In this document: positions 25,898 through 44,299 of the stretch, piece by piece
Position numbering within the stretch: position 1 is the first letter of the stretch
How the letters are laid out: each line of letters starts with the position of its first letter
From: Frankia nepalensis
GTDB lineage: Bacteria > Actinomycetota > Actinomycetes > Frankiales > Frankiaceae
Direction: 5' to 3'
Assembly: GCF_016786325.1 (NCBI RefSeq)
Contig: NZ_JADWYU010000090.1
Span: 1-58,768, forward strand
Length of the DNA: 58,768 nt
The notes under the pieces: generated by a model
What the model was told of the DNA's origin: nothing
Seen by the model: the letters and a program-made list of their open reading frames with translations, nothing else
Databases searched by the model: none
Translations under genes and position numbers: made by a program

Positions 25898-26836
25898 TCA
25901 GGCGGCGGCGGGCGGCTGGGGCAGGGCGGCGAGGTCGGCGGGGGTGAGCTCCCAGGACGCCGCCGCGGCGTTGGCCGCGACCTGCTCGGGCCTGGTCGCG
26001 CCCGCGATGACGGACGAGACGCCGGTCTGGGCCGCGAGCCAGGCGACGGCCAACTCCAGGATCGTGTGGCCGCGCTCGCGGGCGAACGCGGTCAGCTCGT
26101 CGATGTAGGCGAAGTTCTCCGGGGTCGCCGCCTGGGCGAAGTACGGCGCCGAGGCCAGCCGGGTGCCCTCCGGGAACGGCTGACCGGCCGCGTACTTGCC
26201 CGACAGCAGCCCGGAGGCCAGCGGGAAGTACGGCACGATGCCCATGCCCGTCTTGACCGCCGCCGGCGCGATCTCCGCCTCGACGGCGCGGTTGAGCAGG
26301 CTCCACTCGATCTGTGCCGCGGTGAAGGCCGCGATCCCGCGCTCGGCGGCGAACGCCGCCCGTTCCTCGATCTCGGCGGCGGTCACGTTCGAGCAGGCGA
26401 GGTGCAGCACCTTGCCGGCGCGGACCAGCTCGTCGAGGGCCTCCATCGCCTCGGCGTTCGAGCCCTCGACATCGACGAAGTGCTGGTAGTAGACGTCGAT
26501 CCGGTCGGTGCCGAGCCGGCGCAGGCTGCCCTCGCAGCCCTCGAGGATGCGCCTGCGCAGGATGCCCGGCGCGTAGGGCTCGCCCTTCGGGCGGCGCATC
26601 ACCTTCGTCGCGATGACGGCCTCGTCGCGGCGCGCGCCGAGCGCGGCGCCCAGGAACTCCTCCGAGCGCCCCCCGCCGTACATCTCGGCGGTGTCGAAGT
26701 GGGTGATCCCGGCGTCGAGCGCCGCGCGCACGACGACCGCGCTCGCCGCCGCGTCGATGCGCATCCCGAAGTTGTTGCAGCCCAGGCCGACGACGGACAC
26801 GGCGGGTCCCGTCGCGCCCAGCGGTCGCGTCCGCAT
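25898..26836 (-). CDS. Aldo/keto reductase
   Basis: The 312-residue NADPH-dependent (alpha/beta)8 barrel shows the catalytic tetrad in order: Asp and Tyr in HFDTAEMYGGGRSEEFLG, Lys in VIATKVM and His in DVYYQHFVD. The C-terminal NADPH-binding part includes GVSSVIAGATRPEQVAAN. It reduces aldehydes or ketones, but the specific substrate is unknown. It starts at ATG 26836 and is divergent from the kinase at 26976, with a perfect palindrome in its promoter region. Confidence 0.9.
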   Translation of the reverse strand: MRTRPLGATGPAVSVVGLGCNNFGMRIDAAASAVVVRAALDAGITHFDTAEMYGGGRSEEFLGAALGARRDEAVIATKVMRRPKGEPYAPGILRRRILEGCEGSLRRLGTDRIDVYYQHFVDVEGSNAEAMEALDELVRAGKVLHLACSNVTAAEIEERAAFAAERGIAAFTAAQIEWSLLNRAVEAEIAPAAVKTGMGIVPYFPLASGLLSGKYAAGQPFPEGTRLASAPYFAQAATPENFAYIDELTAFARERGHTILELAVAWLAAQTGVSSVIAGATRPEQVAANAAAASWELTPADLAALPQPPAAA

Positions 26837-26873
26837 ACATCCTCCAGAAAGGTGCCAGTTCCCGACGGGAGAC

Positions 26874-26888
26874 TATGGCGTCGCCATA
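26874..26888. promoter_or_regulatory. Perfect palindrome in the divergent promoter region
   Basis: TATGGCG-T-CGCCATA is a perfect 7-1-7 inverted repeat 38 bases upstream of the aldo/keto reductase ATG. It overlaps where its -10 region would lie, so it may be a repressor site. A second hairpin, GGCGCCCG/CGGGCGCC, follows at 26892-26911. Confidence 0.45.
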
Positions 26889-26975
26889 TCCGGCGCCCGC
26901 CGACGGGCGCCGCGCCGCGGATCCCCACAGATCCGACATGTGAGAGGATCACCCGGTGAGCACCGGGGGGTCACG

Positions 26976-29441
26976 ATGGGCATCGACGTGCGCGGGGCGC
27001 GGGCTGACGGCACCGCATCCGCGACCGTGACGCCACCCGACGGCACCTCGGCGCCGGCCGGCCCACCCACCGCGCGGACGGACGGCGCCGGCCAGCCCGC
27101 GCCGGCCGAGCCGGCGGACACCGCGAACGAGCCGGGTCGGACAGCGCCGACCGTCCAGCCAGGCGAGGCAGAGCGGCCGGGCGAGGCAGAGCGGCTGGGC
27201 GAGGCAGAGCGGCTGGGCGAGGCAGAGCGGCTGGGCGAGGCAGAGCGGCTGGATGATCCGGACCAGCCCGAGCGGTCGGCCCCGGCCGCGGTGGCGCCGG
27301 GTGGCGCGGCGGCCGGGGCGGGCATCGCGGGGCCGACGGCGGCCGGCCACCCCGGGTTCTCGCTGGGAGACCTCCAGATCGGGGAGCTGCTCGGGCGGGG
27401 CGCGACCGGCGAGGTGTACCGGGCGGTCGGCCCGGACGGCGCGGTGGTCGCGGTCAAGCTGCTGCGGCCGGAGCTGGCCGACGAGCCACAGGTGGTGGCG
27501 CGGCTGCTGCAGGAGTGCAAGGTGGTCGCCCGGATCGCCGACCCGCACGTCGTGCCGATCCGCCACCTCGTCGCCGAGGGCGACCGCGTCGGGATCGTCA
27601 TGGAATACCTGCCCGACGGGGATCTGCGCGGCCTGGTGCGGCGTGTGGGCGCCCTTGCCCCGGCCGACGCGTCGCGGCTGACCTGGCAGGTCCTGCTCGG
27701 CCTGCGCCGCGCGCACGAGGCCGGTGTGGTGCACCGCGACGTCAAGCCGGAGAACATCCTGCTGCGGGGCACGGACGTCGCACTGACCGACTTCGGGATC
27801 GCCCGCCAGCTCGAAGGCCCGGCACTCACCCGCAGCACCGGGCTTCTCGGCACGCCGGCCTACCTGGCCCCGGAGCTCGCGGAGCACCAGTCGACGACCC
27901 CCGCCGTCGACGTCTACTCCGCCGGTTGCCTGCTCTACGAACTGCTGACGGGGCAGCCGCCGTTCGTCGGCGGACCGGCCGTCGCCGTCCTGCTGCGCCA
28001 CATGAACGAGGCGCCGACCCGGCCACCGGGCCTGCCCGACCGGCTGTGGGACCTGCTCGCGGCGATGCTCGCCAAGCAGCCCCAGCGGCGCCCGACCGCG
28101 GCCCAGGCGGCGGACACGCTCGTCGCCCTCGCGTCCCTGCTCACCGGCCTGCCTGCTCGGCCCACGCCGCCGGCACCCGCCGCCCAGGCGGGCTCGACGT
28201 CCCAGCCGAACGCGACGCCCCAGGACTACCGGACGCCGTCGCTCCCGTCCGCGCCGACGGCCGGGCCGCCCCCGGGATCCGGCCAGCCCCCGGCGCCGGA
28301 GCCGCCCCCGGCGCTCGACCCGCGCGCCACCCGTACCAGCGGGCCGCGAGGCCCGTACGCGCGCACGCCTCCGGGCTCGGCGGCCTGGCCGGGCGCCGGG
28401 GCCCCCGCGCCGGCTGCCGGGACGGCGGACGGGCCGGACGCCGACGAGGCCGACGTCAACCGGACCCGCACCAGCGCGCCACGGCCCGGCGCCTGGTCAC
28501 CGGGCGGCCCGCGCCCGGTGGTCCCCGCGGCACCCCGCCGCGGGTTCTCGCGCCGCGCCGCGATCCTCGTTCCCGTCGCGGTGGTCCTCGTGCTGGCGCT
28601 GGTCGGCACCGTGCTCGGGGTCGTGCTGCGCGACTCGCGGCGGGCCGTCCTCGCCGGCGACGCGTCCGCGGTCACCGCCGCCCCGTCCGGCGCGCGGAGC
28701 GCCGACGGGAATGACCAGGCCGCGCCGCCGGGGAAGGCCCCGGGGCCGACCGGCCCGACCGGCCCGAGCGCGACGCCCACCTCGCCGCCGGCCCCGGCGG
28801 GCCCCGGCGTCATCGGGACGCCCTCCCAGGCGGGATCGGAGCCGCCGAGGACGAGCGCGCCGCCGCCGGAAGCGGCCCAGCCACCGGCGCAGGCGCCCCC
28901 GCCGGCGCGGCCGTCGCTGACGGCCGTCGCGAGCTCCGGCGCCGTCCTGCTCAAGATCGGCCAGCCGTCCGGTGGCCAGGTCACCGGCTACCGCGTCAAC
29001 GGCACCGGACTCCCCACCCGGACCGTCTCCTCGGCTGGCCAGGTGATGATGTCGGTGCCGGACTGCGACCCGCGCTCGTTCACCGTCACCGCCGTCGGCC
29101 CTGGCGGGACCGTGGACTCGGCCCCCATCGAGGCCGTGGGATGCGTGCCGCCCGGCTCGGTGACCGGGGTGACGGCCACGGTCGACCAGTTCGCGGCCGA
29201 CGGCTCCGGCCAGGCGATCATCCGCTGGTCCGCGCCCGCCGACCTCGGTGGCGCCACCAGCGTCGACTACATCGTCACCATCACCCCGGCGTATCCGGAC
29301 TACGCGCCGTTCACCAGGACGGCCGCCGACACGGTCTTCTACCACTGCATGCCGGCCGGCCGCTGCCCCGAACGCGTGACCTCCGTCCAGGCCCGCACCT
29401 CCGTGGGCCTGGGGCCCAAGGTCGCGGTCCCCAGCTACTGA
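26976..29441 (+). CDS. Membrane Ser/Thr protein kinase with extracellular FN3-like domain
   Basis: An 821-residue PASTA-less Hanks-type kinase. After about 115 low-complexity residues, including five tandem GEAERL-type hexapeptides, comes the kinase domain (about 130-395): LGRGATGEVYRAV glycine loop, VVAVKLL lysine, VVHRDVKPENILL catalytic loop, DFGIAR and GTPAYLAPE. A Pro-rich juxtamembrane stretch with RAT/RT-rich possible phosphosites follows, then one membrane helix near 530-550 (AAILVPVAVVLVLALVGTVLG) and an extracellular Pro/Ala linker. The C-terminal domain of about 170 residues has FN3-like strands and Cys pairs. It likely senses something outside the cell and phosphorylates Ser/Thr targets. 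ATG 26976 is the chosen start. Confidence 0.85.
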   Translation: MGIDVRGARADGTASATVTPPDGTSAPAGPPTARTDGAGQPAPAEPADTANEPGRTAPTVQPGEAERPGEAERLGEAERLGEAERLGEAERLDDPDQPERSAPAAVAPGGAAAGAGIAGPTAAGHPGFSLGDLQIGELLGRGATGEVYRAVGPDGAVVAVKLLRPELADEPQVVARLLQECKVVARIADPHVVPIRHLVAEGDRVGIVMEYLPDGDLRGLVRRVGALAPADASRLTWQVLLGLRRAHEAGVVHRDVKPENILLRGTDVALTDFGIARQLEGPALTRSTGLLGTPAYLAPELAEHQSTTPAVDVYSAGCLLYELLTGQPPFVGGPAVAVLLRHMNEAPTRPPGLPDRLWDLLAAMLAKQPQRRPTAAQAADTLVALASLLTGLPARPTPPAPAAQAGSTSQPNATPQDYRTPSLPSAPTAGPPPGSGQPPAPEPPPALDPRATRTSGPRGPYARTPPGSAAWPGAGAPAPAAGTADGPDADEADVNRTRTSAPRPGAWSPGGPRPVVPAAPRRGFSRRAAILVPVAVVLVLALVGTVLGVVLRDSRRAVLAGDASAVTAAPSGARSADGNDQAAPPGKAPGPTGPTGPSATPTSPPAPAGPGVIGTPSQAGSEPPRTSAPPPEAAQPPAQAPPPARPSLTAVASSGAVLLKIGQPSGGQVTGYRVNGTGLPTRTVSSAGQVMMSVPDCDPRSFTVTAVGPGGTVDSAPIEAVGCVPPGSVTGVTATVDQFAADGSGQAIIRWSAPADLGGATSVDYIVTITPAYPDYAPFTRTAADTVFYHCMPAGRCPERVTSVQARTSVGLGPKVAVPSY
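27155..27252. repeat. 18-bp tandem repeats inside the kinase gene
   Basis: About five copies of GAGGCAGAGCGGCTGGGC in a row, keeping the reading frame and encoding GEAERL hexapeptides in the unstructured N-terminus. Copy number could vary by slippage without breaking the frame. Confidence 0.85.
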
Positions 29442-29718: not shown

Positions 29719-30663
29719 ATGAGCAGCTCGATACGCATTCTCGTCGGGGTTGATGGCTCGGTCGGATCGGAGGCGGCACTGCGGTGGGCGCTGCGCGAGG
29801 CCGCGCTGTGGTCCGCCGTGAACGGCGCCACCGGGACGCCGACCGTGACCGCGCTGCTGGTCTGGAGCCCGGACGGACTGCCCAGCGGCGTGCTGCGCGC
29901 CGCCGTCCACGGCGACCACGACGGGCTCACCCAGGCCGCCGCCGACATGCTGGAGCGGACGATCAAGCGCGTCGGGGAGCCGGCGGCGCCGGTCGAGTTG
30001 CGCCGGATCGTCCGCGAGGGCGATCCGGTGTCCGTGGTCACCAGCGTGGCCAGGGACTTCGACATGCTGGTGGTCGGCGAGCGCGGCCATGGCGCGCTCC
30101 ACCGCCTCACCGCCGGCTCCGTCAGCCAGGGGATCGTGCACCACGCGCCGGTGCCGGTCGTGGTCGCCCGGCCCCCGAAGGACGACGGGACGCCGGTGAC
30201 CGAGGGCGAGCGCCGGCCCGTCGTCGTCGGGGTCGACGGATCGGACCTGTCGCTGGCCGCGCTGCGTTGGGCCGCGCACGCGGCGGCGGTCCGCAAGGTG
30301 CCGCTGCGGGTGGTACATGCCTGGGGCGGCTACGACCCGATGTACGCCGAGGTGATGGTCATGGCGCAGGCCTCGCTGGTCAAGCAGGCCTCCGACATCC
30401 TCGACCAGGCGGTCAAGCTCGGCCTGGACAGCGCGCCCGGCCTCACCGTCGACTCGGTGACCTCGCCGGACTCCGGCGTGCGCGCCCTGATGCGCGAGGC
30501 GCACGGCGCCCAGCTGCTCGTCGTCGGCAACCGGGGCCACGGCGGGTTCGCCCGCCTCCTGCTCGGCTCCGTCAGCCACCAGTGCGTCCTGCACGCCGCC
30601 TGCGACGTCGCCGTCATCCGCTCCGGCACGGCTCCGGCGCCCACGGAGGCGCCCGCGCGGTAG
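29719..30663 (+). CDS. Universal stress protein with two USP domains
   Basis: The 314-residue protein is a tandem of two UspA folds. Domain 1 starts IRILVGVDGSVGSEAALRWALREA and contains the ATP-site GERGHGALHRLTAGSVSQGIVHHAPVPVVV. Domain 2 starts VVVGVDGSDLSLAALRWAAHAA and has GNRGHGGFARLLLGSVSHQCVLHAACDVAVI. Both G-x2-G-x9-GS nucleotide motifs are intact, so ATP binding is expected. Tandem USPs of this kind belong to the DosR hypoxia regulon in mycobacteria; the DosR-like regulator lies next door, convergent, which fits a low-oxygen or starvation role (inference). Confidence 0.92.
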   Translation: MSSSIRILVGVDGSVGSEAALRWALREAALWSAVNGATGTPTVTALLVWSPDGLPSGVLRAAVHGDHDGLTQAAADMLERTIKRVGEPAAPVELRRIVREGDPVSVVTSVARDFDMLVVGERGHGALHRLTAGSVSQGIVHHAPVPVVVARPPKDDGTPVTEGERRPVVVGVDGSDLSLAALRWAAHAAAVRKVPLRVVHAWGGYDPMYAEVMVMAQASLVKQASDILDQAVKLGLDSAPGLTVDSVTSPDSGVRALMREAHGAQLLVVGNRGHGGFARLLLGSVSHQCVLHAACDVAVIRSGTAPAPTEAPAR

Positions 30664-30756: not shown

Positions 30757-31392
30757 TTACTTGTCGACCTTGGTGGCGAACACGGCGGCCTGGGTGCGGC
30801 TGGTCAGTTCCAGCTTGACCAGGATCGAGGAGACATAATTCTTGACGGTCTTCTCTGACAGATGGATGCGGGTCGCGATCTGCCGGTTCGTCAGGCCCTC
30901 GGCCACCAGGTGCAGGATCTCGCGCTCCCGGCCGCCCAGGGTGGCGAGCTTCGGGTCCTGCGTGGGCCCCTCCCGCAGCCGGATGAGGACCCGCTGGGTC
31001 ACGGCCGGGTCGAGCAGCGAGCGGCCGGCGGCGATCGTGTGGATCGCGCCGATCAGGTCCGTTCCCTTGATCTGCTTGAGCAGGTAGCCGGCCGCGCCGG
31101 CCATGATCGCCGAGAACAGCGCGTCGTCGTCGTCATAGGACGTCAGGATGAGGCAGCCGATCTCGGGGTGGGCCGAGCGGATCTCGCGGCAGACGTCGAT
31201 GCCGCTGCCGTCCTCCAGCCGGGCGTCGAGGACGGCCACGTTCGGCGCGACGATCGGGATCCGGCGCAGCGCCTCGGCCACCGTCGCCGCCTCGCCGACG
31301 ACCTGGATCTCACCCGTGTCCTCGAGCATCTCCCGGATGCCACGACGGACGATCTCGTGGTCATCCAGGAGGAACACCCGCACCCCGCTCAT
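30757..31392 (-). CDS. DosR/NarL-family response regulator
   Basis: The 211-residue regulator has a receiver domain starting VRVFLLDDHEIVRRGIREML (acidic DD), with phosphoacceptor Asp in VAVLDARLEDGSG, Thr/Ser in LILTSYDDDD and Lys in GYLLKQI. A LuxR-type HTH at the C-terminus reads LGGREREILHLVAEGLTNRQIATRIHLSEKTVKNYVSSILVKL. The SEKTVKNYVS recognition helix and layout are close to mycobacterial DevR/DosR. ATG 31392 is chosen by comparison with DosR; a start at 31422 would add ten residues. No histidine kinase is adjacent. It flanks the H2 operon, so it is a candidate regulator of both the USP gene and the hydrogenase. Confidence 0.88.
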   Translation of the reverse strand: MSGVRVFLLDDHEIVRRGIREMLEDTGEIQVVGEAATVAEALRRIPIVAPNVAVLDARLEDGSGIDVCREIRSAHPEIGCLILTSYDDDDALFSAIMAGAAGYLLKQIKGTDLIGAIHTIAAGRSLLDPAVTQRVLIRLREGPTQDPKLATLGGREREILHLVAEGLTNRQIATRIHLSEKTVKNYVSSILVKLELTSRTQAAVFATKVDK

Positions 31393-31637
31393 GATCGACA
31401 CTTTACAGCCATCAGTGGACATGCGGACACCCCGGGTGGGCGTGCCGGGGCGGATTGTCCGGTCCGTCACCCCAGGTGGGCCCCCGCCTCCGGTTCTGGC
31501 GCCGCCGGCCCGCGATGCCGCGGAACCTCGGATACGAGGGCCTCGTCCGGAAAGTCGAGATCGGGCCGGCGCGCGCTGGCCCCGGGGCTTCGGGCGCGTA
31601 CCGCCCGCGCCGCCGGCGCCGCCCGCGCGACGGTCGG
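31393..31637. other. Intergenic region upstream of the response regulator
   Basis: About 245 bases between two minus-strand genes. No gene seen; presumably it holds the regulator's promoter. Confidence 0.35.
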
Positions 31638-32165
31638 CTAACGGCCCAGCGCCTCCTGGATCGCCTGGACGCGCAGGTGATCGAGCCGGTCGGCCTGCCG
31701 GGCCGCTCGGTCGACGAGCGCGTCGAACTCGGCGGGATCGAGGCCGAGCTCGGCGTCGCGTCGCGCGATGGTGGCGAGGGTCACCCAGCCGAGCCGCTTG
31801 CCCTCGACGCCGAGCCGCAGCGCCTCCAGCTCGACCACGGAGCTCAGCGGGGAGCTCGCCACGAGCCGCCCGTTCGACTTCGCGCGCGCGACCAGCTCGG
31901 CCAGCCAGCCGAGCGCCACCTTGTAGCGGCGGCGCGTGATGCCCAGCCGGTCGAACAGCGCGAGGAAGGCCGCCCGGTCCGCCTCGATCTCCTCGGCGAT
32001 CGAGGCGACCGCGGGGCCGACGGGCAGCGCGCGATGCCGGCGGGCCATTCGTCGAGCAAGGCCCAGACCCGCCGTCGACCCCGCGAGGTGGTCGTTCAGG
32101 TAGATGCCGAGGAGCCGTTCGGCGCTTGGCCGGCCACGGACGCCGGCGACAGTCGTAGCTTGCAC
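31638..32165 (-). CDS. Conserved all-alpha (ferritin-like?) protein of unknown function
   Basis: About 175 residues, nearly all predicted helix: RLLGIYLNDHLAGSTAGLGLARRMARRH, then IAEEIEADRAAFLALFDRLGI, KVALGWLAELVARAKSNGRLVASSPLSSVVELEALRLGVEGK and WVTLATI, ending with a last helix. I recall this as a widespread actinobacterial family with a four-helix-bundle look, sometimes compared with ferritin-like proteins, without an assigned function. Glu and Asp in the helices could bind metal. GTG 32165 is preferred because AAGGA lies nine bases before it; a TTG at 32171 is the alternative. It is divergent from hypA across a 400-base control region. Confidence 0.6.
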   Translation of the reverse strand: MQATTVAGVRGRPSAERLLGIYLNDHLAGSTAGLGLARRMARRHRALPVGPAVASIAEEIEADRAAFLALFDRLGITRRRYKVALGWLAELVARAKSNGRLVASSPLSSVVELEALRLGVEGKRLGWVTLATIARRDAELGLDPAEFDALVDRAARQADRLDHLRVQAIQEALGR

Positions 32166-32577
32166 GATCAATCATCCTTCGGGTGCTCGTGAGGGCGGCC
32201 GGTCCGCGCGCCTGGTCCGGTGCGTCGCGGCCTGGAGATCTCCCGCGCGCCGGCGTCCTCGTCGTCGCGGCCGGGGCGGTCGGAAATCCGCCCCGACACC
32301 GCCGTGAGTTCCTCACGGTCACCAGTACCCGAGCCCGGCCGACCCAGGGATTGTTTTTCCCGGAACCCGGCGGGTGAAATCGGCGAACCGTCGACACGAT
32401 TTACCCGGCCATGTGGCCAACTGGTACGGGAATCGCCGGGCCGGCTCGACGCGACTCGCTCGGCGTCTGCCGTTACCTTGTGTGCGCGAGCTGGCGGTCG
32501 TGGACGATCACGGAGGCCGTCAGGAAAGCACGTCGGCGGGAGTCACCGGGAGGCCTCCGTGCGCACGCGGACCGGCC
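32166..32577. promoter_or_regulatory. Control region upstream of the hydrogenase cluster
   Basis: About 410 bases without a gene. It holds a perfect palindrome CCGTGAG-TTC-CTCACGG at 32302-32318 and a ten-base palindrome GGAGGCCTCC at 32549-32558, 20-29 bases before hypA. The latter covers the only Shine-Dalgarno-like bases near the start. The region presumably contains the main promoter of the hydrogenase operon; no sigma-70-like pair was convincing. Confidence 0.5.
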
Positions 32578-32913
32578 ATGCATGAGCTTGCTGTGACACA
32601 GGGCATTGTCGAGATGATTGTCGACCGGGTACGGGATCGGCGGGTCCTGGCGGTGAACCTCGCAATTGGCCAGATCTCGGGCGTGGCCCCCCACGCCATC
32701 CGTTTCTGTTTTGACCTGGTCGCCGCCGGCACCGTGGTCGAGGGCGCGCGCCTGCATATCGACACTCCGATCGGCCGGGCGCGCTGCCGAAGCTGCGGCC
32801 TGGACGACCTCGTCGTCGAGGCCCCGATTCCTCTTTGCGGTTGTGGCAGCGCCGACCTGGAGGTGACCAGTGGCGACGAGCTGGTGGTCACCTCGGTAGA
32901 GGTGGCGGTGTAG
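32578..32913 (+). CDS. hypA: HypA nickel-insertion protein
   Basis: The 111-residue HypA starts MHELAVTQGIVEMI; His2 is the nickel ligand, which fixes the ATG at 32578. The zinc domain has CRSCG and, 13 residues later, the second pair as LCGCG, spaced C-x-C rather than the usual C-x2-C. HypA takes Ni2+ with HypB to the hydrogenase large subunit. There is no good ribosome site at the normal distance. It is the first gene of the plus-strand hydrogenase cluster. Confidence 0.92.
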   Translation: MHELAVTQGIVEMIVDRVRDRRVLAVNLAIGQISGVAPHAIRFCFDLVAAGTVVEGARLHIDTPIGRARCRSCGLDDLVVEAPIPLCGCGSADLEVTSGDELVVTSVEVAV

Positions 32914-32994: not shown

Positions 32995-33975
32995 GTGTGC
33001 GTGACCTGCGGGTGTGGCGGCCACGCCCAGTCCATGATCATTGGTTCCGGCTATCCGGTGTCCGATGCCGCGGGCGAACGCGAGCAGCCGGCGCCGGCTC
33101 ATCACGGGCATGCCGACCATGCCGACCATGCGGGCCATGCCGGTCCTGCTGACCATGCCAGCCATGCCGGGTCCGTGGAGCGTCGGCTGGGCGTTCCCAC
33201 GGGCCGCGCGCCGGCCGACGCGCACCTGGTCGTCCTCGAGGAGCGCGTGCTCGCGAAGAACGACGCCCTCGCCGCGTCCAACCGCCACCGGCTGGCGCGT
33301 CACGGCATCCTCGCCGTGAATGTCATGAGCTCCCCTGGCGCCGGGAAGACCGCTCTGCTGGAACGCGCCGTCCGTGAGCTGGGCGCCGACTGGCCGGTCG
33401 CGGTCATCGAGGGTGACCAGGAAGGCGCGCTCGACGCCGACCGGATCAGGGCCAGCGGCGCCCCGGTGGTCCAGGTGAACACGGGCGACGGCTGTCATCT
33501 CGACGCGGAGATGTTCGACCGGGGCCTGAGCGCTCTCGGCGCCGCTCCCGGGACGCTCGTCTTCGTCGAGAACGTCGGCAACCTCGTCTGCCCGGCGCTC
33601 TTCGACCTCGGCGAGGGTGCCCGTGTCGTGGTGATGGCGGTGACCGAGGGCGAGGACAAGCCGGTCAAGTACTCCCGGATGTTCGCGTCGGCGGACCTCG
33701 TCCTGATCAACAAATGCGATCTCCTTCCGCACGTGGACTTCGACCTGGCGGTCTGCGAGCGGCGACTGCGCCTGGCCAGCCCGCGGGCCGAGATCATGCT
33801 GGTCTCCGCGCGGACCGGCGAGGGCCTGGCCGCCTGGTACCACTGGCTTCGTCACCGCGGTGGCCGCCAGGCGCGGGCTTCGGCCGGCCTGGCGGCGTCC
33901 CATGACCCGCCCCTGGGCGACGCGACGCGCGCGTCGCCGGGCTTCGCGTCAGCCGTCGAGTCCTCAACGCCCTGA
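32995..33975 (+). CDS. hypB: HypB nickel-storage GTPase
   Basis: The 326-residue HypB starts MCVTCGCGGH, carrying the CxxCGC high-affinity nickel motif, so GTG 32995 is certain. Residues about 36-57 are His-rich (eight His in HHGHADHADHAGHAG and beyond) for nickel storage. The GTPase core has P-loop SPGAGKT (113-119), EGDQEGALDADRI, the metal-site GDGCHLD and NKCD. It ends in a disordered tail of about 40 residues after GLAAWYHWL. It hydrolyses GTP while handing Ni2+ over with HypA. Confidence 0.95.
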   Translation: MCVTCGCGGHAQSMIIGSGYPVSDAAGEREQPAPAHHGHADHADHAGHAGPADHASHAGSVERRLGVPTGRAPADAHLVVLEERVLAKNDALAASNRHRLARHGILAVNVMSSPGAGKTALLERAVRELGADWPVAVIEGDQEGALDADRIRASGAPVVQVNTGDGCHLDAEMFDRGLSALGAAPGTLVFVENVGNLVCPALFDLGEGARVVVMAVTEGEDKPVKYSRMFASADLVLINKCDLLPHVDFDLAVCERRLRLASPRAEIMLVSARTGEGLAAWYHWLRHRGGRQARASAGLAASHDPPLGDATRASPGFASAVESSTP

Positions 33976-33986
33976 ACGGAGCAGAC

Positions 33987-34052
33987 ATGCGCCTCGCACC
34001 GAGATGCGGTGTGGCAAGGGTGGCCGGCGCGGCCACGGCGGAGCGCTCGTGA
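33987..34052 (+). CDS. Possible 21-codon leader ORF
   Basis: An ATG behind GGAGCAG encodes MRLAPRCGVARVAG and seven more residues; its TGA overlaps the GTG of the next gene (GTGA at 34049-34052). It may exist only to couple translation between hypB and the following gene. Chance is a real alternative at this length. Confidence 0.3.
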   Translation: MRLAPRCGVARVAGAATAERS

Positions 34053-35653
34053 TCCCCGACCTCGGCACCGAGAGCGCCACCGCGCCCGCGGCCGACCCGG
34101 CCGCGCCGCCGCCCGGGTTCGCCGCGGCGCTGGCGGTCGCCGACGCGGTGCTGTACGAGGGCTACCTGCTGTACCCCTACCGTCGATCGTCCGGCAAGAA
34201 CCGGGTGCGCTGGCAGTTCGGCGTCCTCATGCCGAGGCCGTGGGCCGAGGCGAACGGCCTGCCCACCCCCACCGTCGCGGGCTCGTCCGACTCGTGGCGT
34301 CAGCAGACCGAGTGCCTGGTGGAGGCGTCCCCGGGCGCCGTCGTCCATGTCCGCCTGCGCTTCCTGCACCTGCAGCACCGCTCGGTGCGCAGACGGGTCG
34401 GGCAGGACGAGTTCGCCGAGGTCGACGAGGCGTGGAGTGGTGATCGTCGGTACCTCACCTTCGACGAGGCCGTCGAGCGGGAGGTCGACCTCGCGGTCGA
34501 GCTGGCCGAGCTGACCGCCGGGCCGTGGCGGCACGAGGTGGTCTGGCCGGCCGCCGAGTCGGTCGAGCCGCTCGATCGCGACACGAGGATCGCCCGATGC
34601 CAGCAGCCGGTGTCCGGGCTGATCCACCTGTCGGCGCGGGCCGCCGACACCCCCTTCCCGGCGTGGCGGCTGCGTCTCGTCACGGAGAACACCGCGACGG
34701 ACCTGGCCACGGACACCCCCCGCCCGCTGGCCCTGCGCCGCGCGCTGCTCGCCACGCACTCCCTGCTCGGTGTGCGGGGCGGGAGGTTCCTGTCGCTGCT
34801 CGACCCCCCGGCCTGGGCGGAACCGGCCGCCCGGGCCTGCGAGAACCTGCACACGTTCCCGGTGCTGGCGGGGGCTGACGACCGCGGCGACGGCGGCGGC
34901 GACGTCGTCCTGTCGGCTCCGATCATCCTTCACGACCACCCGGGGGTCGCCCCCGAGAGCCCGGGCGACCTGTTCGACGCGACCGAGATCGACGAGATCC
35001 TCTCGCTGCGGACGTTGACGCTCACCGAGGAGGAGAAGCGGGAGGCCCGGGCGACCGACCCGCGGGCGGCCGAGATCATCGACCGGGTCGAGCTCATCCC
35101 GGACGACGTCTTCGCGCGCCTGCACGGCGCCGTCCGGTCGCTGCGTCCGGTGCCGGTGCCGGTGCCGGCACCGGCGCCGGCGCCGGTGGCGGTGGCGGCC
35201 CGCACACCGGGGGCCCAGCCGCCGCCCGCCTCGTCGCCGGCCGCCCCGAACTCGTCGGCGCGCCTGCCGCGGCCGTCCGCGCCGGAGCCGTCCATGGCTC
35301 GGCCGCCCGCGCCGGCCTGGTGGGACCCGGAGGCGGACGCCGCGGTCTCGCCCGACCGCGAGTCCGTTGTCGTCGACGGCGCGCGGGTGGCGAAGGGGTC
35401 CCGGGTCAGGCTGCGGCCACGCGGGCGCGGCGGTGACGCGCAGGACATGTTTCTCGACGGCCGCGAGGCCATCGTCGAGGGCGTCTTCCGAGACGTCGAC
35501 GACGCGCGGCACCTGGCCGTGATCCTCGTCGACGATCCGGGCGCGGACCTTCATCGCTGGTACGGGCGCCACTACTACTTCGCCCCCGACGAGGTCCAGG
35601 TCGTCCTCCCGCCCGACGGCGGGGCGGCGCCGGCCGGAAGGCCAGCGCGTTGA
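34049..35653 (+). CDS. Uncharacterised hydrogenase-cluster protein (534 aa)
   Basis: A 534-residue cytoplasmic protein without membrane segments or known enzyme motifs. The N-terminal 380 residues hold conserved-looking pieces: AVADAVLYEGYLLYPYRRSSGKNRVRWQFGVLMPRPWAEA, QQTECLVEASPGAVVHVRLRFLHLQ, QQPVSGLIHLSARA, FLSLLDPPAWAEPAARACENLHTFPVL and IILHDHPGVAPESPGDLFDATEIDEILSLRTLTLTEEEK. A Pro/Ala linker (about 370-440) leads to a C-terminal SH3/KOW-like beta domain (GSRVRLRPRGRGGDAQD and ILVDDPGADLHRWYGRHYYFAPDEVQVV). I recall similar proteins in other actinobacterial group 1h hydrogenase loci but no function. GTG 34049 overlaps the leader ORF; an in-frame ATG at 34004 is possible. The TGA overlaps the next gene's TTG. 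Confidence 0.75.
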   Translation: MIPDLGTESATAPAADPAAPPPGFAAALAVADAVLYEGYLLYPYRRSSGKNRVRWQFGVLMPRPWAEANGLPTPTVAGSSDSWRQQTECLVEASPGAVVHVRLRFLHLQHRSVRRRVGQDEFAEVDEAWSGDRRYLTFDEAVEREVDLAVELAELTAGPWRHEVVWPAAESVEPLDRDTRIARCQQPVSGLIHLSARAADTPFPAWRLRLVTENTATDLATDTPRPLALRRALLATHSLLGVRGGRFLSLLDPPAWAEPAARACENLHTFPVLAGADDRGDGGGDVVLSAPIILHDHPGVAPESPGDLFDATEIDEILSLRTLTLTEEEKREARATDPRAAEIIDRVELIPDDVFARLHGAVRSLRPVPVPVPAPAPAPVAVAARTPGAQPPPASSPAAPNSSARLPRPSAPEPSMARPPAPAWWDPEADAAVSPDRESVVVDGARVAKGSRVRLRPRGRGGDAQDMFLDGREAIVEGVFRDVDDARHLAVILVDDPGADLHRWYGRHYYFAPDEVQVVLPPDGGAAPAGRPAR

Positions 35654-36258
35654 CCGCCCAGCCGTCCGGTCTGACGGGCGCGGGACCGGCGCCGACGCGG
35701 GGCCCGGGCACCGGCGGGCCGAGAGCGCCGAGGGTCCTCGTCGCGGGGATAGGCAATGTGTTCCTCGGCGACGACGGGTTCGGCGTCCAGGTGGTCCGGC
35801 GGATCGCCCGCGGCCCGGTCCCTGACGGGGTGGACGTCGTCGACTACGGGATCCGCGGTGTCCATCTCGCCTACGACCTGCTCGACGGCCGGTACGCGAC
35901 GGTCGTGATGGTGGACGCGGCGCCGCTCGACGGGCCTCCCGGCACCCTCGGCGTGCTGGAGGTCGACACCGCTGCCCCGCCCGCCGACACCGCCGCGGCG
36001 GGCGTGGGCGGTACCACCCCGGGCTTCGACGCCCATGGGCTGCACCCCGAGGCCGTCCTCGCGCTGTTGCGCGGCCTCGGGGGGCACATCGACCGCGTCC
36101 TCGTCGTCGGCTGCCAACCGGCGGCGCTTGACGAGGGCATGGATCTCTCGGAGCCCGTTCGAGCCTCGGTGGATGCCGCCGCGCGCCTGGTTCTGCAACT
36201 GGCCAGGAACGAGGTGGCCGCCCTGGCGGGCGCCGAAGAACGGAGGAACGCGCGATGA
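35650..36258 (+). CDS. Hydrogenase maturation endopeptidase (HyaD/HoxM type)
   Basis: About 202 residues. The peptidase M52 core starts RVLVAGIGNVFLGDDGFGVQVVRRI. The GIGN-x-LGDDG-x-G motif has Asp where many relatives have Glu as the first nickel ligand; further parts are VVDYGIRGVHLAYDLLDG, VVMVDAAP (second acidic ligand) and DAHGLHPEAVL (His ligand). It should clip the 22-residue tail of the large subunit after nickel insertion. The TTG at 35650 overlaps the preceding stop; a disordered N-terminus of about 28 residues results. The stop overlaps the small-subunit ATG (ATGA), a tight coupling with its substrate operon. Confidence 0.9.
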   Translation: MTAQPSGLTGAGPAPTRGPGTGGPRAPRVLVAGIGNVFLGDDGFGVQVVRRIARGPVPDGVDVVDYGIRGVHLAYDLLDGRYATVVMVDAAPLDGPPGTLGVLEVDTAAPPADTAAAGVGGTTPGFDAHGLHPEAVLALLRGLGGHIDRVLVVGCQPAALDEGMDLSEPVRASVDAAARLVLQLARNEVAALAGAEERRNAR

Positions 36259-37352
36259 CCACCACTCCTACCACCACCGAGGCCGCGGCCGCGTCGGCTC
36301 CGCGTGGGTTCGACGAGATGACCATTCTCTGGATCTCGGAGGGGATGAGCTGCGACGGCGACACCGTCTCGATCACGGCGGCGACGCAGCCGGCGATCGA
36401 GGACGTGCTGCTGGGCCTCGTGCCGGGTCTGCCCACGGTGCACCTCCACAACAAGGTGCTGTCGCCGACGCTCGGCGGCGAGGAGTTCCTCGCCCCGTTC
36501 CGCGCGGCGGTGAACGGTGACCTCGCCCCGTTCATCCTCGTGATCGAGGGCTCGATCCCGAACGAGAACATCAACGGCGACGGGTACTGGACCTCGTTCG
36601 GGAACGACCTGATCACGGGCGAGCCGCTGACGCTGAACTGGTGGATCGACCGCCTCGCGCCGCAGGCGTGGGCGGTCGTCGCGATCGGCACCTGCGCGGC
36701 CTACGGCGGCATCCACGCGATGGCCGGCAACCCGACCGGCTGCATGGGCCTGGCCGACTACCTCGGCTGGGACTTCAGGTCCGCCGGCGGGCTGCCGATC
36801 GTGAACATCCCGGGATGCCCGGTGCAGCCCGACAACTTCATGGAGACCCTGACCTGGGTGCTGTACCACGCGGCCGGCGCCGCGCCGCCCCCGCCGCTGG
36901 ACGACCTGCTGCGCCCGCAGTGGCTGTTCGGCAGGACGGTGCACGAGGGCTGCGACCGGGGCGGTTACTACGAGCAGGGCGACTTCGCCCGGGACTACAA
37001 CTCGCCGAAATGCCAGGTGATGATCGGCTGCTGGGGCCCGGTGGTCAACTGCAACGTGCCGAAGCGCGGGTGGATGGGCGGGGTCGGCGGCTGCCCCAAC
37101 GTCGGCGGCATCTGTATTGGCTGCACCATGCCCGGATTCCCGGACAAGTTCATGCCATTCATGGACATGCCGCCGGGAAGCAGCATCTCCGCGACGCTCA
37201 CCAAGCCATACGGCGCGCTCATCCGGCGATTGCGCGGCATAACGAACACGACGGTCAACAAGGAGCCGCGGTGGCGGCACAACGGCCCCGAGCTGACGAG
37301 CGGCTACGATCCTCGCTGGCGTCCGGACGGACGGGCGAGCAAGGTTCGATAA
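36255..37352 (+). CDS. hhyS: [NiFe]-hydrogenase small subunit, group 1h type
   Basis: The 365-residue electron-transfer subunit has no Tat signal, so it is cytoplasmic or peripheral. The proximal cluster motif reads SCDGD (Cys33, Asp36) in place of C-x2-C, joined by Cys147 (IGTCAAYGG) and Cys188 (IPGCPV). This 3Cys-1Asp cluster is the hallmark of the actinobacterial-type hydrogenase of Ralstonia (established knowledge). The distal cluster uses His230, Cys233, Cys253 and Cys259; the medial one Cys266, Cys280, Cys287 and Cys290. Together with the large subunit it oxidises H2, in relatives at atmospheric concentration and in the presence of O2. The electron acceptor is not encoded here. Confidence 0.93.
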   Translation: MTTTPTTTEAAAASAPRGFDEMTILWISEGMSCDGDTVSITAATQPAIEDVLLGLVPGLPTVHLHNKVLSPTLGGEEFLAPFRAAVNGDLAPFILVIEGSIPNENINGDGYWTSFGNDLITGEPLTLNWWIDRLAPQAWAVVAIGTCAAYGGIHAMAGNPTGCMGLADYLGWDFRSAGGLPIVNIPGCPVQPDNFMETLTWVLYHAAGAAPPPPLDDLLRPQWLFGRTVHEGCDRGGYYEQGDFARDYNSPKCQVMIGCWGPVVNCNVPKRGWMGGVGGCPNVGGICIGCTMPGFPDKFMPFMDMPPGSSISATLTKPYGALIRRLRGITNTTVNKEPRWRHNGPELTSGYDPRWRPDGRASKVR

Positions 37353-37421: not shown

Positions 37422-39218
37422 ATGGCGGCGAGAACGACTCAGCGCACGGCGGCGGCACCATCGTCCCAGCTCGTCGAGATGGCCTGGGATCCGATCACCC
37501 GTATCATCGGCAACCTCGGTATCTACACGAAGATCGACTTTGCGAACCGGCGCGTGGCCGAATGTCACAGCACGTCGTCGCTGTTCCGTGGCTATTCCAT
37601 GTTCATGAAGGGCAAGGACCCCCGGGACGCCGGCTTCATCACCAGTCGCATCTGTGGCATCTGCGGCGACAACCACACCACCTGTTCGGTATACGCGCAG
37701 AACATGGCCTACGGCGTGAAGCCGCCGCCGCTGGCCGAGTGGATCATCAACCTGGGTGAAGCGGCCGAGTACATGTTCGACCACACGATCTTCCAGGACA
37801 ACCTGGTGTTCGTGGACTACTCGGCGGCGATGGTGGCCCAGACGAACCCCAGCGTGCTGGCCCGCGCCGAGAACACCCAGGCGCCGGGCGCGGGAATCCA
37901 CGGCTACCGCACCATCGCCGACATCATGCGGTCCTTCAACCCGTTCGAGGGCGACCTCTACAAGGAGGCGCTCCAGGTCTCCCGGGTCACCCGCGAGATG
38001 TTCTGCCTGATGGAGGGCAGGCACGTGCACCCTTCCACGGTCTATCCGGGCGGGGTGGGGACGATGCCCGAGCCGTCGCTCATCACCGACTATCTCAGCC
38101 GGCTGATGTCCATCCTCGACTTCGTCAAGAAGTCCGTGGCGATGAACAACGACGTCTTCGACTTCTTCTACGCGGCGCTGCCGGGCTACGAGGAGGTCGG
38201 CCGGCGGCGCGTGCTGCTCGGCTGCTGGGGTGCCTGGCAGGACCCGGCCGTCTGTGACTACCGGTACCAGACCATGTCCGAGTGGGGCCGGTCCATGTAC
38301 GTCACCCCCGGCATCGTGGTCGACGGCGAACTGATCACCACCAACCTCGTCGACATCAACCTGGGCATCCGGATCCTCCTTGGCAGTTCCTTCTACGGCG
38401 ACTGGGTGAACGAGCAGCCCTTCGTCACCCACGACCCGCTCGGCAATCCGGTGGACATGCGCCACCCCTGGAACCAGACCACGCTGCCCGAGCCGCAGAA
38501 GCGGGACTTCGACGGGAAGTACAGCTGGGTGATGAGCCCGCGCTGGTTCGACAGGCGGACCGGCGACCACCTCGCGCTCGACACGGGCGGCGGCCCGTAC
38601 GCCCGGCTTTACACCACCGCGCTCGCTGGCCTGGTCGACACCCCGTACGTCACCTCGACGGGGAACAGCGTCCGGATTTCGCTCCCGAAGAGCGAGCGGC
38701 TGCCCGCGACGACGCTGGAGTGGAAGATCCCGCCGTGGTCGAACGCCATCGAGCGCAACCGGGCGAGGGTCTACTTCGTCGCGTACTCGGCGGCGATGGC
38801 CCTCTACTTCGTGGAGCGGGCGCTGGAAGGCATCCGCTCCGGTGACACCCGGGTGTTCACCGACTTCGACGTGCCCGACGAGGCGATCGGCTGCGGATTC
38901 CACGAGGCGGTCCGCGGGGTCCTGTCCCACCACATGGTGATCCAGGACGGGAAGATCGCCAACTATCACCCGTACCCGCCGACGCCGTGGAACGGCAGCC
39001 CGCGCGACAGCTACGGCACGCCAGGGCCCTACGAGGACGCCGTCCAGGACATGCCGATCTTCGAGGAGAACGGCCCGGACGACTTCAAGGGCGTCGACAT
39101 CATGCGGGCGGTCCGCAGCTTCGACCCCTGCCTGCCCTGCGGCGTGCACATGTACGTCGGCAACGGGCGGACCATCACCCACCAGCATTCACCGATGCTG
39201 GGCGCCCAGCATGGCTGA
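37422..39218 (+). CDS. hhyL: [NiFe]-hydrogenase large subunit, group 1h type
   Basis: The 598-residue catalytic subunit starts near WDPITRIIGNLGIYTKIDF. L1 motif RICGICGDNH gives Cys78 and Cys81; L2 motif DPCLPCGVH gives Cys570 and Cys573, the four ligands of the Ni-Fe(CN)2CO centre. Behind His576 is a 22-residue tail (577-598) for removal by the endopeptidase. GDNHTTCSVYAQNMAYGVKPPPLAEW is typical of group 1h. Starts at ATG 37422, 69 bases after the small subunit, with AAGGCCCGAC as a weak ribosome site. Its last eight bases overlap the NifU-like gene. Confidence 0.95.
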   Translation: MAARTTQRTAAAPSSQLVEMAWDPITRIIGNLGIYTKIDFANRRVAECHSTSSLFRGYSMFMKGKDPRDAGFITSRICGICGDNHTTCSVYAQNMAYGVKPPPLAEWIINLGEAAEYMFDHTIFQDNLVFVDYSAAMVAQTNPSVLARAENTQAPGAGIHGYRTIADIMRSFNPFEGDLYKEALQVSRVTREMFCLMEGRHVHPSTVYPGGVGTMPEPSLITDYLSRLMSILDFVKKSVAMNNDVFDFFYAALPGYEEVGRRRVLLGCWGAWQDPAVCDYRYQTMSEWGRSMYVTPGIVVDGELITTNLVDINLGIRILLGSSFYGDWVNEQPFVTHDPLGNPVDMRHPWNQTTLPEPQKRDFDGKYSWVMSPRWFDRRTGDHLALDTGGGPYARLYTTALAGLVDTPYVTSTGNSVRISLPKSERLPATTLEWKIPPWSNAIERNRARVYFVAYSAAMALYFVERALEGIRSGDTRVFTDFDVPDEAIGCGFHEAVRGVLSHHMVIQDGKIANYHPYPPTPWNGSPRDSYGTPGPYEDAVQDMPIFEENGPDDFKGVDIMRAVRSFDPCLPCGVHMYVGNGRTITHQHSPMLGAQHG

Positions 39219-39876
39219 CCCGCGCGGCGGCTCCGCGGGTGCGCTGGCACCTGGTCCGCCCGGCCCGCCCGGCCCGCCCGGCCCGCCCGGCCCGCCCGGC
39301 CTGGCCGACCCGGCCGCGCCGGCCGGTCCCCAGCGGCTCGACGACGAGGCCGTGCGGGAGCGCCTCGCCCAGGTCGACGGGCTGCTGGAGCAGCTCGAGC
39401 GGGCACCGGGGCCGACGGCCGAGCTGGCGCTGGGCGCGGTGTCCACGCTGCTCGAGGTGTACGGCGAGGCGCTGGCCCGGGTGAGCGCCCACGCCGCGCG
39501 CGTGCCCGACGTGCGGGCCGGCCTCACCGCCGACGAGCTGATCGCCCACCTGTTCGTCCTGCACGAGGTCCATCCGGACTCGGTCGAGCACCGGGCGGGC
39601 CGCGCGCTGGAGTCGCTGCGCGCGGGGCTCGCGGCGGTGGGCGCCGAGGCCGAGCTGCGCGGGATCGAGAGCGGCGCGGCGACGGTCATGGTCCGTCACG
39701 AGGGCGGCTGTGGCGCCGCGACGACCGCGGCGGCGATCACCGAGGCGGTCCGCGACGCGGTGCTGGCCATGGCGCCGGAACTGTCCGAGGTCCGCGTCAC
39801 CGTCGGCGCGGCCCAGGCGCTGGTCCCGGTCGACTCGCTGCTGCGCGGGCCGACGGCCCTGGAGTCGGCACGGTGA
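39211..39876 (+). CDS. NifU-like domain protein lacking the CxxC motif
   Basis: A 221-residue protein. The first 40 residues are a collagen-like run of Gly-Pro-Pro triplets; residues 45-120 form a helical bundle (AVRERLAQVDGLLEQLERAPG, LTADELIAHLFVLHEVHPDSVEHRAGRALESLRAGLAAVG). The C-terminal 80 residues have the NifU C-terminal (Nfu) fold: AELRGIESGAATVMVRHEGGCGAATTAAAITEAVRDAVLAMAPELSEVRV. Where Nfu proteins carry C-x2-C for a transferable [4Fe-4S] cluster there is GGCG with one Cys, as seen in some homologues of these loci as I recall. It may aid Fe-S delivery to the small subunit or serve another scaffold role. Overlaps its neighbours at both ends. Confidence 0.78.
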   Translation: MADPRGGSAGALAPGPPGPPGPPGPPGPPGLADPAAPAGPQRLDDEAVRERLAQVDGLLEQLERAPGPTAELALGAVSTLLEVYGEALARVSAHAARVPDVRAGLTADELIAHLFVLHEVHPDSVEHRAGRALESLRAGLAAVGAEAELRGIESGAATVMVRHEGGCGAATTAAAITEAVRDAVLAMAPELSEVRVTVGAAQALVPVDSLLRGPTALESAR

Positions 39877-40751
39877 TCGTCGACGTGGGCCGGGGCGCGT
39901 TCGGCATGGGCGCGGGCATGGGCATGGGTGTCGGCGCCGCCGCGCCCGCCGGCCCGGCCGGTGTCGCCCGGCCCGGCCCGGCGCCCGGCACCGGTGGAGG
40001 CGCGGACGCGGGATTCGGGCTGGGGGCCGCCGACGGCGCGCTGCGCCGCGCGGCGCGCCGCTCCCGGTACGCGGACGCGCGCGGCTCGTCGGCCTCGGAG
40101 CGTTGCCACCTGTGCGCGGTGCCGTTGCCCGAGCCGCACCGGCACCTGCTCGACGAACAGGACACCCGGCTTCGCTGCGTGTGCCAGGCCTGCGCGCTGC
40201 TGTTCGAACGGGACGCGGCGGGGCGCGGCCACTACGTCCTCGTCCCACGCCGGCGGCTGGCCCTGCCCGGTTTCTCTCCGGGCACGCTGGGGATTCCGGT
40301 CGGCCTGGCCTTCTTCGTCGTCCAGCCGGACGGACGGGTCGTCGCGCACTATCCAAGCCCGCTCGGAGTCACCCACGGGGAGGTCGATCCGGCCGTCTGG
40401 GCCGAGGCGCGGGCGCGCTGCGCCGAGGTGGGCACGCTGAAACCGCTGGTCGAGTCGGTGCTGGTGAACACGGCCAAAGGTGCCAATGAGCACTGGATAG
40501 TCCCGATTGACTTCTGTTATCGGCTTGTCGCCCTCCTGCGGGCCGAATGGAAAGGAATGTCCGGAGGCAGCACGGTGTGGCCGGCGATTGACGAACTCTT
40601 CGGCACGCTTGCCCCCGGCCAGGCCGCTGCCCGCCCCGCGCTCGCGGACCGGAGCGCGGATCGAGGTGCCGGTTCGGCGCCGCGCGGGGCACATCCTTCC
40701 TGGCACGACACCTCCGTCCGCGCGGACGTCCCCGCCAGGGCGGACACCTGA
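39873..40751 (+). CDS. DUF5947-like hydrogenase accessory protein
   Basis: A 292-residue protein. A Gly/Met/Ala-rich start of about 50 residues is followed by ERCHLCAVPLPEPHRHLLDEQD and LRCVCQACALLF, two cysteine groups (C-x2-C and C-x-C-x2-C) that could bind zinc or an Fe-S cluster. Then come VPRRRLALPGFSPGTLGIPVGLAFFV, VVAHYPSPLGVTHGEVDPAVWAEA and a C-terminal IVPIDFCYRLVALLRAEWKGMSGG. I recognise it as DUF5947, which I know only from actinobacterial hydrogenase clusters. A rubredoxin-like or assembly role is possible. GTG 39873 overlaps the NifU-like stop. Confidence 0.72.
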   Translation: MIVDVGRGAFGMGAGMGMGVGAAAPAGPAGVARPGPAPGTGGGADAGFGLGAADGALRRAARRSRYADARGSSASERCHLCAVPLPEPHRHLLDEQDTRLRCVCQACALLFERDAAGRGHYVLVPRRRLALPGFSPGTLGIPVGLAFFVVQPDGRVVAHYPSPLGVTHGEVDPAVWAEARARCAEVGTLKPLVESVLVNTAKGANEHWIVPIDFCYRLVALLRAEWKGMSGGSTVWPAIDELFGTLAPGQAAARPALADRSADRGAGSAPRGAHPSWHDTSVRADVPARADT

Positions 40752-43870: not shown

Positions 43871-43876
43871 GGGCGC

Positions 43877-44295
43877 GTGTGTCTGGCGGTACCGGGCCGG
43901 GTGGTCCGGACATTCGATCGCCGGGGGACGCCGATGGCCGAGGTCGACTTCGGCGGCGTCCGCAAGGACGTGTGCCTGGCGTACCTCCCCGAGGTCGCCG
44001 TCCACGACTACGTGATCGTGCACGTCGGCTTCGCCATCCAGCGCCTGGACGAGCGCCGCGCGCTGGAGACGCTTGCCGAGTTCCGGCGCTTCGGCCTGCT
44101 CGACGAGGAGTTCGCCGACCCGTTCACGGCCGGTGACGAGGGTGCGGCCACCGGGGCCGGCGCTTCCGGTGCCGTCCCGGGCGACCTGCCCGATCAGCGC
44201 CAGGTCGCCCGGGCCGACGACCAGCACGGGGATCGCCCGGCGGGGCGCTCTCCTGAGCTCGCCGGCGGGCGGACAGACGAGAGGGCGGTCAACCC

Positions 44296-44299
<4 letters not shown>
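43877..44299 (+). CDS. hypC: HypC hydrogenase chaperone
   Basis: The 140-residue product starts [10 protein letters not shown]; Cys2 is the iron ligand, which fixes GTG 43877. [39 protein letters not shown] is the standard OB-fold core. Usual HypC proteins are 75-95 residues; here about 50 extra disordered residues follow ([13 protein letters not shown] and on). The gene's last four bases overlap hypD. HypC holds Fe(CN)2CO with HypD and delivers it to the large subunit. Confidence 0.93.

Follow-up and report, generated by a model that had tools for sequence, protein, structure and literature searches.

In the genomes sampled, ORF534, a 534-residue protein encoded in the maturation module of a Frankia nepalensis hydrogenase cluster, goes with only one class of [NiFe] hydrogenase, the group 1h-like enzymes. 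We put at about even the chance that it is a soluble, class-specific assembly or maturation scaffold for these (HofG/HhyL) hydrogenases, a reading based on its co-occurrence and co-inheritance with the enzyme, its position beside the protease or small-subunit gene, and the absence of any recognisable motor, Fe-S motif or, in the protein studied here, membrane span. A scaffold role is also suggested by the predicted shape of one part of the protein, which resembles the framework of a DNA helicase that defends against viruses. As far as can be seen, what this work adds to the initial annotation is the restriction to one hydrogenase class, the existence of two cluster arrangements and the DrmA-like domain.

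The gene occupies positions 34049 to 35653 on the plus strand of the window, by which we mean the whole 58,768-nucleotide stretch of DNA analysed. It starts with a GTG preceded by GGAG, translates without internal stop into 534 residues ending in ...LHRWYGRHYYFAPDEVQVVLPPDGGAAPAGRPAR, and closes with a TGA, so that its initial description as a real gene lying between hypB and the hydrogenase protease stands. The overlap claimed with the protease gene is likewise there and measures 4 nt, provided that the protease starts at the TTG at 35650. The cluster reads as follows.

32578 to 32913, plus strand: hypA (PF01155; start, MHEL, picked by eye)
32995 to 33975, plus strand: hypB-type GTPase (PF02492)
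34049 to 35653, plus strand: ORF534, accessory protein (GTG start, TGA stop)
35650 to 36258, plus strand: hydrogenase maturation protease (TIGR00072, 106.9 bits)
36255 to 37352, plus strand: hydrogenase small subunit
37422 to 39218, plus strand: hydrogenase large subunit, group 1h-like (C-terminal extension after DPCLPCGVH)
39211 to 39876, plus strand: NifU-domain protein at the HhyE position (Pfam match slightly under the cut-off)
39873 to 40751, plus strand: DUF5947 protein (PF19372)

Genes for HypF, HypD and HypE follow downstream of the DUF5947 gene. ORF534 shares this module with the Hyp maturation proteins and the HupD-type protease but matches no Hyp or protease family: TIGR00072 (the HupD/HycI hydrogenase protease family) is matched by the next gene and not by ORF534, and the HypC/HybG signature is absent from the Pfam and NCBIfam matches of ORF534 and its homologues. 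The window protein itself has no match in Pfam or in NCBIfam (0 families at E up to 0.1), and across 50 homologues Pfam returns scattered weak matches only, the best at E 0.0061 and the commonest family in 4 of the 50. Since its homologues are 40-76% identical to it, the earlier picture of a conserved, unnamed protein that sits inside the maturation module and is no known maturation factor is borne out. As for the neighbours, the translation of the DUF5947 gene (39873-40751), read by eye, contains two CxxC motifs, CHLC and CQAC, which suggests a possible metal site. The open reading frame at the HypC position (43867-44136) has no Pfam match, is overlapped by another frame (43877-44299) and is called hypC as a candidate only. 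Upstream of the cluster lie genes for a LuxR-type response regulator (30757-32397, minus strand), a universal stress protein (29719-30663, plus strand) and a Ser/Thr kinase (26613-29441, plus strand), which are perhaps connected with dormancy or redox control of the hydrogenase.

The identity of the enzyme is given by its large subunit, which scores 1045 bits against HofG of C. necator (PDB 5aa5) and no more than 157 against the next solved hydrogenase chain, and is therefore group 1h-like; HofG belongs to the actinobacterial-type hydrogenase of C. necator and to group 1h (formerly group 5). With a HofG-like large subunit, a group 2a (Huc) cluster is ruled out. The protein ends in DPCLPCGVH plus a short extension, and such C-terminal extensions of [NiFe] large subunits are of the kind cut off by a maturation protease. 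In four annotated plasmid records, the gene before the large subunit (L002:9193-10248, L003:7113-8201, L004:6891-7946 and L005:7266-8345) is labelled “hydrogenase expression protein HypE”. Our small-subunit query matches all four, and the L002 copy matches the small-subunit Pfam families; the label is a shared misannotation of HofK/HhyS.

Relatives of ORF534 were found by tblastn in 12 plasmid records, from Streptomyces and relatives, Mycobacterium, Methylocystis and Cupriavidus, and a scan confirmed at least 554 in genome contigs; phage records, queried with the L005 homologue, gave no match. Four plasmid genes annotated “hypothetical protein” belong to the family, namely E6A55_RS32540 on C. 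necator pHG1, CNQ36_RS33000 in Streptomyces, AN480_RS29655 in Mycobacterium and F7D14_RS21650 in Methylocystis: they are 40-52% identical to the window protein, keep the same cluster company and lie beside the protease. Their clusters, all 1h-like, run SSU-LSU-NifU-type-DUF5947-DUF6084-ORF-protease (two of the four records label the NifU-type gene “hypothetical”), whereas the window runs hypA-hypB-ORF-protease-SSU-LSU-NifU-DUF5947 and DUF6084 was not found in its genome.

For comparison of loci, the window was joined to the 80 closest of the at least 554 relatives. At 79 of these 81 loci a large subunit is present, in some cases cut by contig ends; the two loci without one (L045 and L049) retain DUF5947, DUF6084 and the protease on contigs only 6.9 and 3.2 kb long. 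Because these closest relatives may be a biased sample, 149 Actinomycetota genomes were searched with the ORF profile and the large subunit. ORF534 was found in 19, and the 1h-like large subunit (at least 61% identity) in 20, these being the same 19 plus a single genome, G049, whose contig stops directly after DUF6084, where ORF534 is expected. The large subunit is split over two contigs in G035 and cut by a contig end in G094. In G093, G094 and G110 all or part of ORF534 falls on a different contig from the large subunit, at contig ends. ORF534 is absent from all 26 genomes whose [NiFe] matches are exclusively of other kinds (identity of the nearest, 41-45%). Two genomes, G114 and G137, have a 1h-like large subunit in pieces only (120 and 83 residues, 60-62%) and lack ORF534. 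The association has a Fisher p of 4e-23 over the 149 genomes, or 3e-21 if these two are counted as positives (ORF534 in 19 of 22), both values ignoring the relatedness of the genomes. ORF534 is located with the 1h-type large subunit and distributed like the 1h class. Homologues common in genomes without hydrogenase genes, which the initial annotation had named as evidence against a hydrogenase function, were looked for and not seen, since all 19 gene-bearing genomes carry the 1h-like enzyme. In G114, short pieces resembling the small subunit, the large subunit and HypE adjoin each other (L103:7381-8234) in a genome with no ORF534 match, an apparent remnant of a 1h cluster. According to one report, Methylacidiphilum fumariolicum SolV, itself a user of a 1h enzyme, does not encode the hypothetical proteins found in the Hyd-1h operon of a different species (PMC7174314), and ORF534, which could be one of these, may not be universal among 1h users.

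The 1h-like clusters come in two ARRANGEMENTS, type I and type II. Among the window and the best 80 of at least 554 relatives, type I (40 loci) has DUF6084, with ORF534 following the structural genes, and type II (41 loci, including the window) has no DUF6084, with ORF534 ahead of them. One branch of the large-subunit tree parts 41 type I from 35 type II rows (SH-aLRT 100), and the ORF tree, which has several long type I branches, parts 48 type I from 42 type II rows (SH-aLRT 99). Since both trees split into types I and II, ORF534 and the catalytic subunit have been inherited together. The large-subunit tree has 76 rows, remaining from 92 loci plus the window after 10 without a large subunit and 7 truncated ones were left out; the ORF tree has 90, leaving out L001 (a duplicate of the window), L053 (truncated), L021, L069, L078 and L092 (not delimited by our script), and L093 and L099-L102 (fetched later). 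DUF6084 is ruled out as a fixed partner of ORF534 for the window genome (G000, 96.8% complete), where a search found 0 copies; the same search was positive in the other 7 of 8 genus genomes. Only a type II cluster was found in the window genome. Three genus mates (G001, G003 and G005) have a type II ORF534 and a second, weaker ORF match near a DUF6084 match, and probably carry two isozyme clusters, one type II and one type I, both 1h-like.

One-to-one co-inheritance with the catalytic subunits also speaks for a permanent part of the mature hydrogenase with a structural or docking task, tying the enzyme to its partners or to the membrane, a role of the sort that HucM plays for the group 2a enzyme Huc. 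The same reading would accommodate the modular, scaffold-like plan of the predicted structure and the position of ORF534 directly before the small-subunit gene, which is found, with no protease between, in 19 type II loci among the best 80 of at least 554. Nevertheless, we hold such a subunit to be unlikely: the window protein has no membrane span, and the C. necator enzyme (AH) was reportedly purified by Schaefer and colleagues in 2013 as two subunits. Moreover, the Thermomicrobium roseum 1h enzyme ran slightly under the size expected for (HhyLS)2 (PMC6776052).

Of the 40 type I loci in the same set (window plus best 80 of at least 554), 38 have the protease directly 3′ of ORF534, as do 9 of the 41 type II loci, and it is in the same place in L069, L078 and L021, where the script did not delimit the ORF534 start. 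A possible protease start codon falls within 5 nt of the ORF534 end at all 47 delimited loci of this set, the start codons being script-chosen and the count standing without a chance estimate; this closeness is consistent with translational coupling. In the four annotated plasmid clusters the overlap is 4 nt in three, and in L004 the annotated protease start is about 126 nt downstream. Adjacency to the protease is not obligatory, since no protease was detected within the fetched flanks of 30 of the 41 type II loci (window plus best 80 of at least 554). Ten of those type II genomes were searched and all contain a protease, which in nine apparently lies about 2 kb past the hypF-side flank and about 12 kb from ORF534 (contigs matched by coordinates), and hence, to judge from the matching coordinates, probably in the same cluster. 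The type II loci in which the small-subunit gene directly adjoins ORF534 (19 among the best 80 of at least 554), together with the NifU-type and DUF5947 genes of the cluster, might instead indicate a factor that acts with the NifU-like and DUF5947 proteins on the small subunit or its Fe-S clusters and has no part in large-subunit cleavage. We consider this decidedly unlikely, given that 88 of 90 homologues are without CxxC and that the type I ORF534 sits beside the protease, away from the small-subunit gene.

The domain plan of ORF534 is a predicted one. An AlphaFold2 model built on a 50-row alignment (the window plus 49 of the 80 loci, chosen for spread, with truncated and overlong sequences excluded) has a mean pLDDT of 77.8 and a pTM of 0.63; residues 23-365 modelled alone reach 81.6 and 0.78. 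A second alignment used 47 of the 50 rows, the other three lacking the cutting motif. The parts are as follows.

34139 to 34228, plus strand: residues 31-60, ADAVLYEGYxLYPYRxSxxKNRxRWxFG (conservation 0.84-0.92, core of low confidence)
34298 to 34918, plus strand: residues 84-290, predicted beta domain like DrmA about 149-425 (block pLDDT 81-98)
34949 to 35131, plus strand: residues 301-361, conserved acidic segment, predicted helical, APESPGDLFDATEIDEILxLRxLTLTxEEKxEARATDPRA...LHG (partly low confidence)
35132 to 35356, plus strand: residues 362-436, variable Pro/Ala-rich flexible linker
35357 to 35608, plus strand: residues 437-520, acidic domain, predicted SH3/KOW/PetP-like

The model has a helix at 24-39, a conserved peptide of low confidence at 40-53, and helices at 308-361 with low confidence over 301-313; the linker stretch 364-436 varies from 2 to 141 residues across 90 homologues (median 42). 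Conservation is highest in blocks 31-60 and 301-340 (0.81-0.92, against 0.46-0.66 for the beta-domain blocks), but these have a pLDDT of only 37-73, so that they may be peptides that become ordered upon a partner, residues 31-60 being a likely partner-binding peptide; alternatively, the low pLDDT could come from a shallow, narrow alignment. Cys264 is near-invariant (88 of 90 homologues) and a second Cys column is occupied in 77 of 90; just 2 of the 90 contain a CxxC. The window protein has a maximum 19-residue hydropathy of 1.41, and no hydrophobic or membrane span was found in it.

The SH3/KOW-like C-terminal domain noticed at the outset reappears when the model is compared with known folds, at Z 6-8 to SH3-like domains (DSIF KOW, PetP, ribosomal, tudor and nitrile hydratase beta), a common fold whose predicted likeness implies no function. 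This domain is acidic in all 90 homologues (median net charge -5, range -12 to -1), and the helical segment has a median net charge of -8. An adaptor passing electrons from the hydrogenase to the respiratory chain could be read out of the fold, which recurs in PetP and also in one chain each of photosystem I and of photosynthetic complex I (presumably PsaE and NdhS). A comparable part has been proposed for two neighbours, since HhyE and the PHG067 homologue MSMEG_2717 are discussed as electron acceptors in PMC6883350. Against this, ORF534 has no Fe-S motif, and the SH3 fold is so common that ribosomal, tudor and KOW domains score alike; we regard the adaptor as very improbable. Of the functions guessed at in the initial annotation, a scaffold or chaperone is still the best idea, and an adaptor that would transfer electrons through an Fe-S centre of its own is unsupported and rejected, because CxxC is present in only 2 of 90 homologues. 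HhyE/HucE, the NifU-type protein, resembles ORF534 in being an accessory gene of 1h clusters conserved with the hydrogenase, and differs in having CxxC motifs, which ORF534 is without; deletion of hucE or hhyE alone is reported to lower H2 oxidation and deletion of both to abolish it, and a maturation role of HhyE is left open (PMC6883350).

The beta domain is where the likeness to DrmA, the DISARM helicase, resides. Taken from the full model it aligns to DrmA 149-423 at Z 11.2 (183 aligned, 4.4 A), and on its own at Z 10.4 (190 aligned, 4.6 A; next unrelated row 5.2), the overall range being Z 10.3-11.2 over 183-198 residues, for predicted models only; in the comparison of the domain alone the aligned DrmA range extends from 150 to 957, and some strands may pair beyond the N-terminal half. 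Foldseek gives probabilities of 1.00 and 0.97 with TM-scores (query length) of only 0.25 and 0.31, and by E-value it places several unspecific InvG rows above DrmA; the secretin/InvG and herpes gB rows were rejected as unspecific (TM 0.05-0.17). With PADLOC, 25 of 50 homologues match one family only, the DrmA model PDLC02573 (E up to 10, best 1.5e-7). Of 10 homologues run singly against this model 8 match, with the best stretch in the N-terminal part of the model, within positions 76-310, and E from 2.3e-6 to 0.014, as against 0 of 5 reversed pieces. For the window protein itself PADLOC gives no match, and for the L002 homologue Specificity_I (E 0.012) comes slightly ahead of DrmA (0.014). PDLC02573 is one of several DrmA models in PADLOC, and the DrmA sequences L130 and L132 match its helicase part only. 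A profile-profile comparison by hhalign of 24 ORF rows with the N-domains of 13 DrmA or DrmA-like rows (two not annotated DrmA) gave 0.2% probability, with reversed controls at 0.5 and 0.8%, and repeated attempts to find sequence homology to canonical DrmA yielded nothing above controls or noise. A genome search with the DrmA model returned mostly helicase C-terminal matches and no close PDLC02573 member, so that an intermediate sequence is missing. The link to DrmA is thus one of predicted structure and one PADLOC model, which the profile-profile comparison does not confirm: the fold resemblance of the modelled beta domain is well supported, and common descent with the DrmA N-terminal region is plausible but unproven. 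A PurS match seen with a 5-row profile (E 0.047) vanished with the 50-row profile (0 matches).

Although the predicted beta-domain fold is shared with the N-terminal half of DrmA, ORF534 lacks the helicase motor and keeps a hydrogenase neighbourhood. It is ruled out as a DISARM gene, since no Pfam helicase (SF2) match was found in 50 homologues and no DrmB (DUF1998) lies beside it, both flanking genes being hydrogenase genes. That DrmA is a DNA helicase, and that KOW and ribosomal proteins appear among the SH3 matches, could point to a nucleic-acid-binding or co-translational factor, but the SH3-like domain is acidic in 90 of 90 homologues, the helical segment has a median of -8, and no motor is found in the 50; this we think scarcely probable at all. 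In the DrmA structure paper, Bravo et al. call the N-terminal half a “structural chassis” and report the region to be without significant structural relatives (PMC9142583). We offer tentatively, at rather less than even odds, the idea that the chassis of a DISARM/YprA-type defence helicase and a 1h assembly scaffold come from one domain, which here, motorless, with an invariant-peptide tip and a tethered SH3, builds a hydrogenase, making ORF534 a previously unrecognised class-specific maturation factor.

If ORF534 is an assembly scaffold, peptides 31-60 and about 301-340 would dock on the immature large subunit, the small subunit or both, becoming ordered upon binding, and the beta domain would serve as the rigid chassis. 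The tethered SH3-like domain might then recruit a second client, whether the protease, a Hyp protein or a neighbouring accessory protein, and the nickel-loaded precursor of the large subunit, or the dimer, would thereby be presented for C-terminal cleavage and dimer assembly. A permanent, loosely bound subunit would give the identical genomic pattern.

The initial annotation’s word “undescribed” holds in that our literature search found no paper studying ORF534, although the 2013 paper by Schaefer and colleagues about the C. necator hydrogenase may discuss it; it holds less well in that accounts of 1h clusters mention such genes, four CDS “of unknown function” beside hhyL in methanotroph clusters (PMC12319191) and the “conserved hypothetical” proteins hhaABC of T. 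roseum (PMC6776052). No paper was found that has both “DrmA” and “hydrogenase” as whole words. Widespread as it is, this helper protein has apparently gone unstudied. The primary sink in the hydrogen cycle consists of soil bacteria oxidising H2 from the atmosphere, with group 1h among the enzymes responsible (PMC6883350, PMC8027828), and the way in which these enzymes hand on electrons is called unresolved (PMC6883350). A DrmA-like fold in ORF534 would give a second context for a region reported in its structure paper to be without significant structural relatives (PMC9142583). Since it follows the 1h class and, in the genomes sampled, no other [NiFe] match, lies in the maturation module and has a scaffold-like plan, ORF534 is a direct experimental target.
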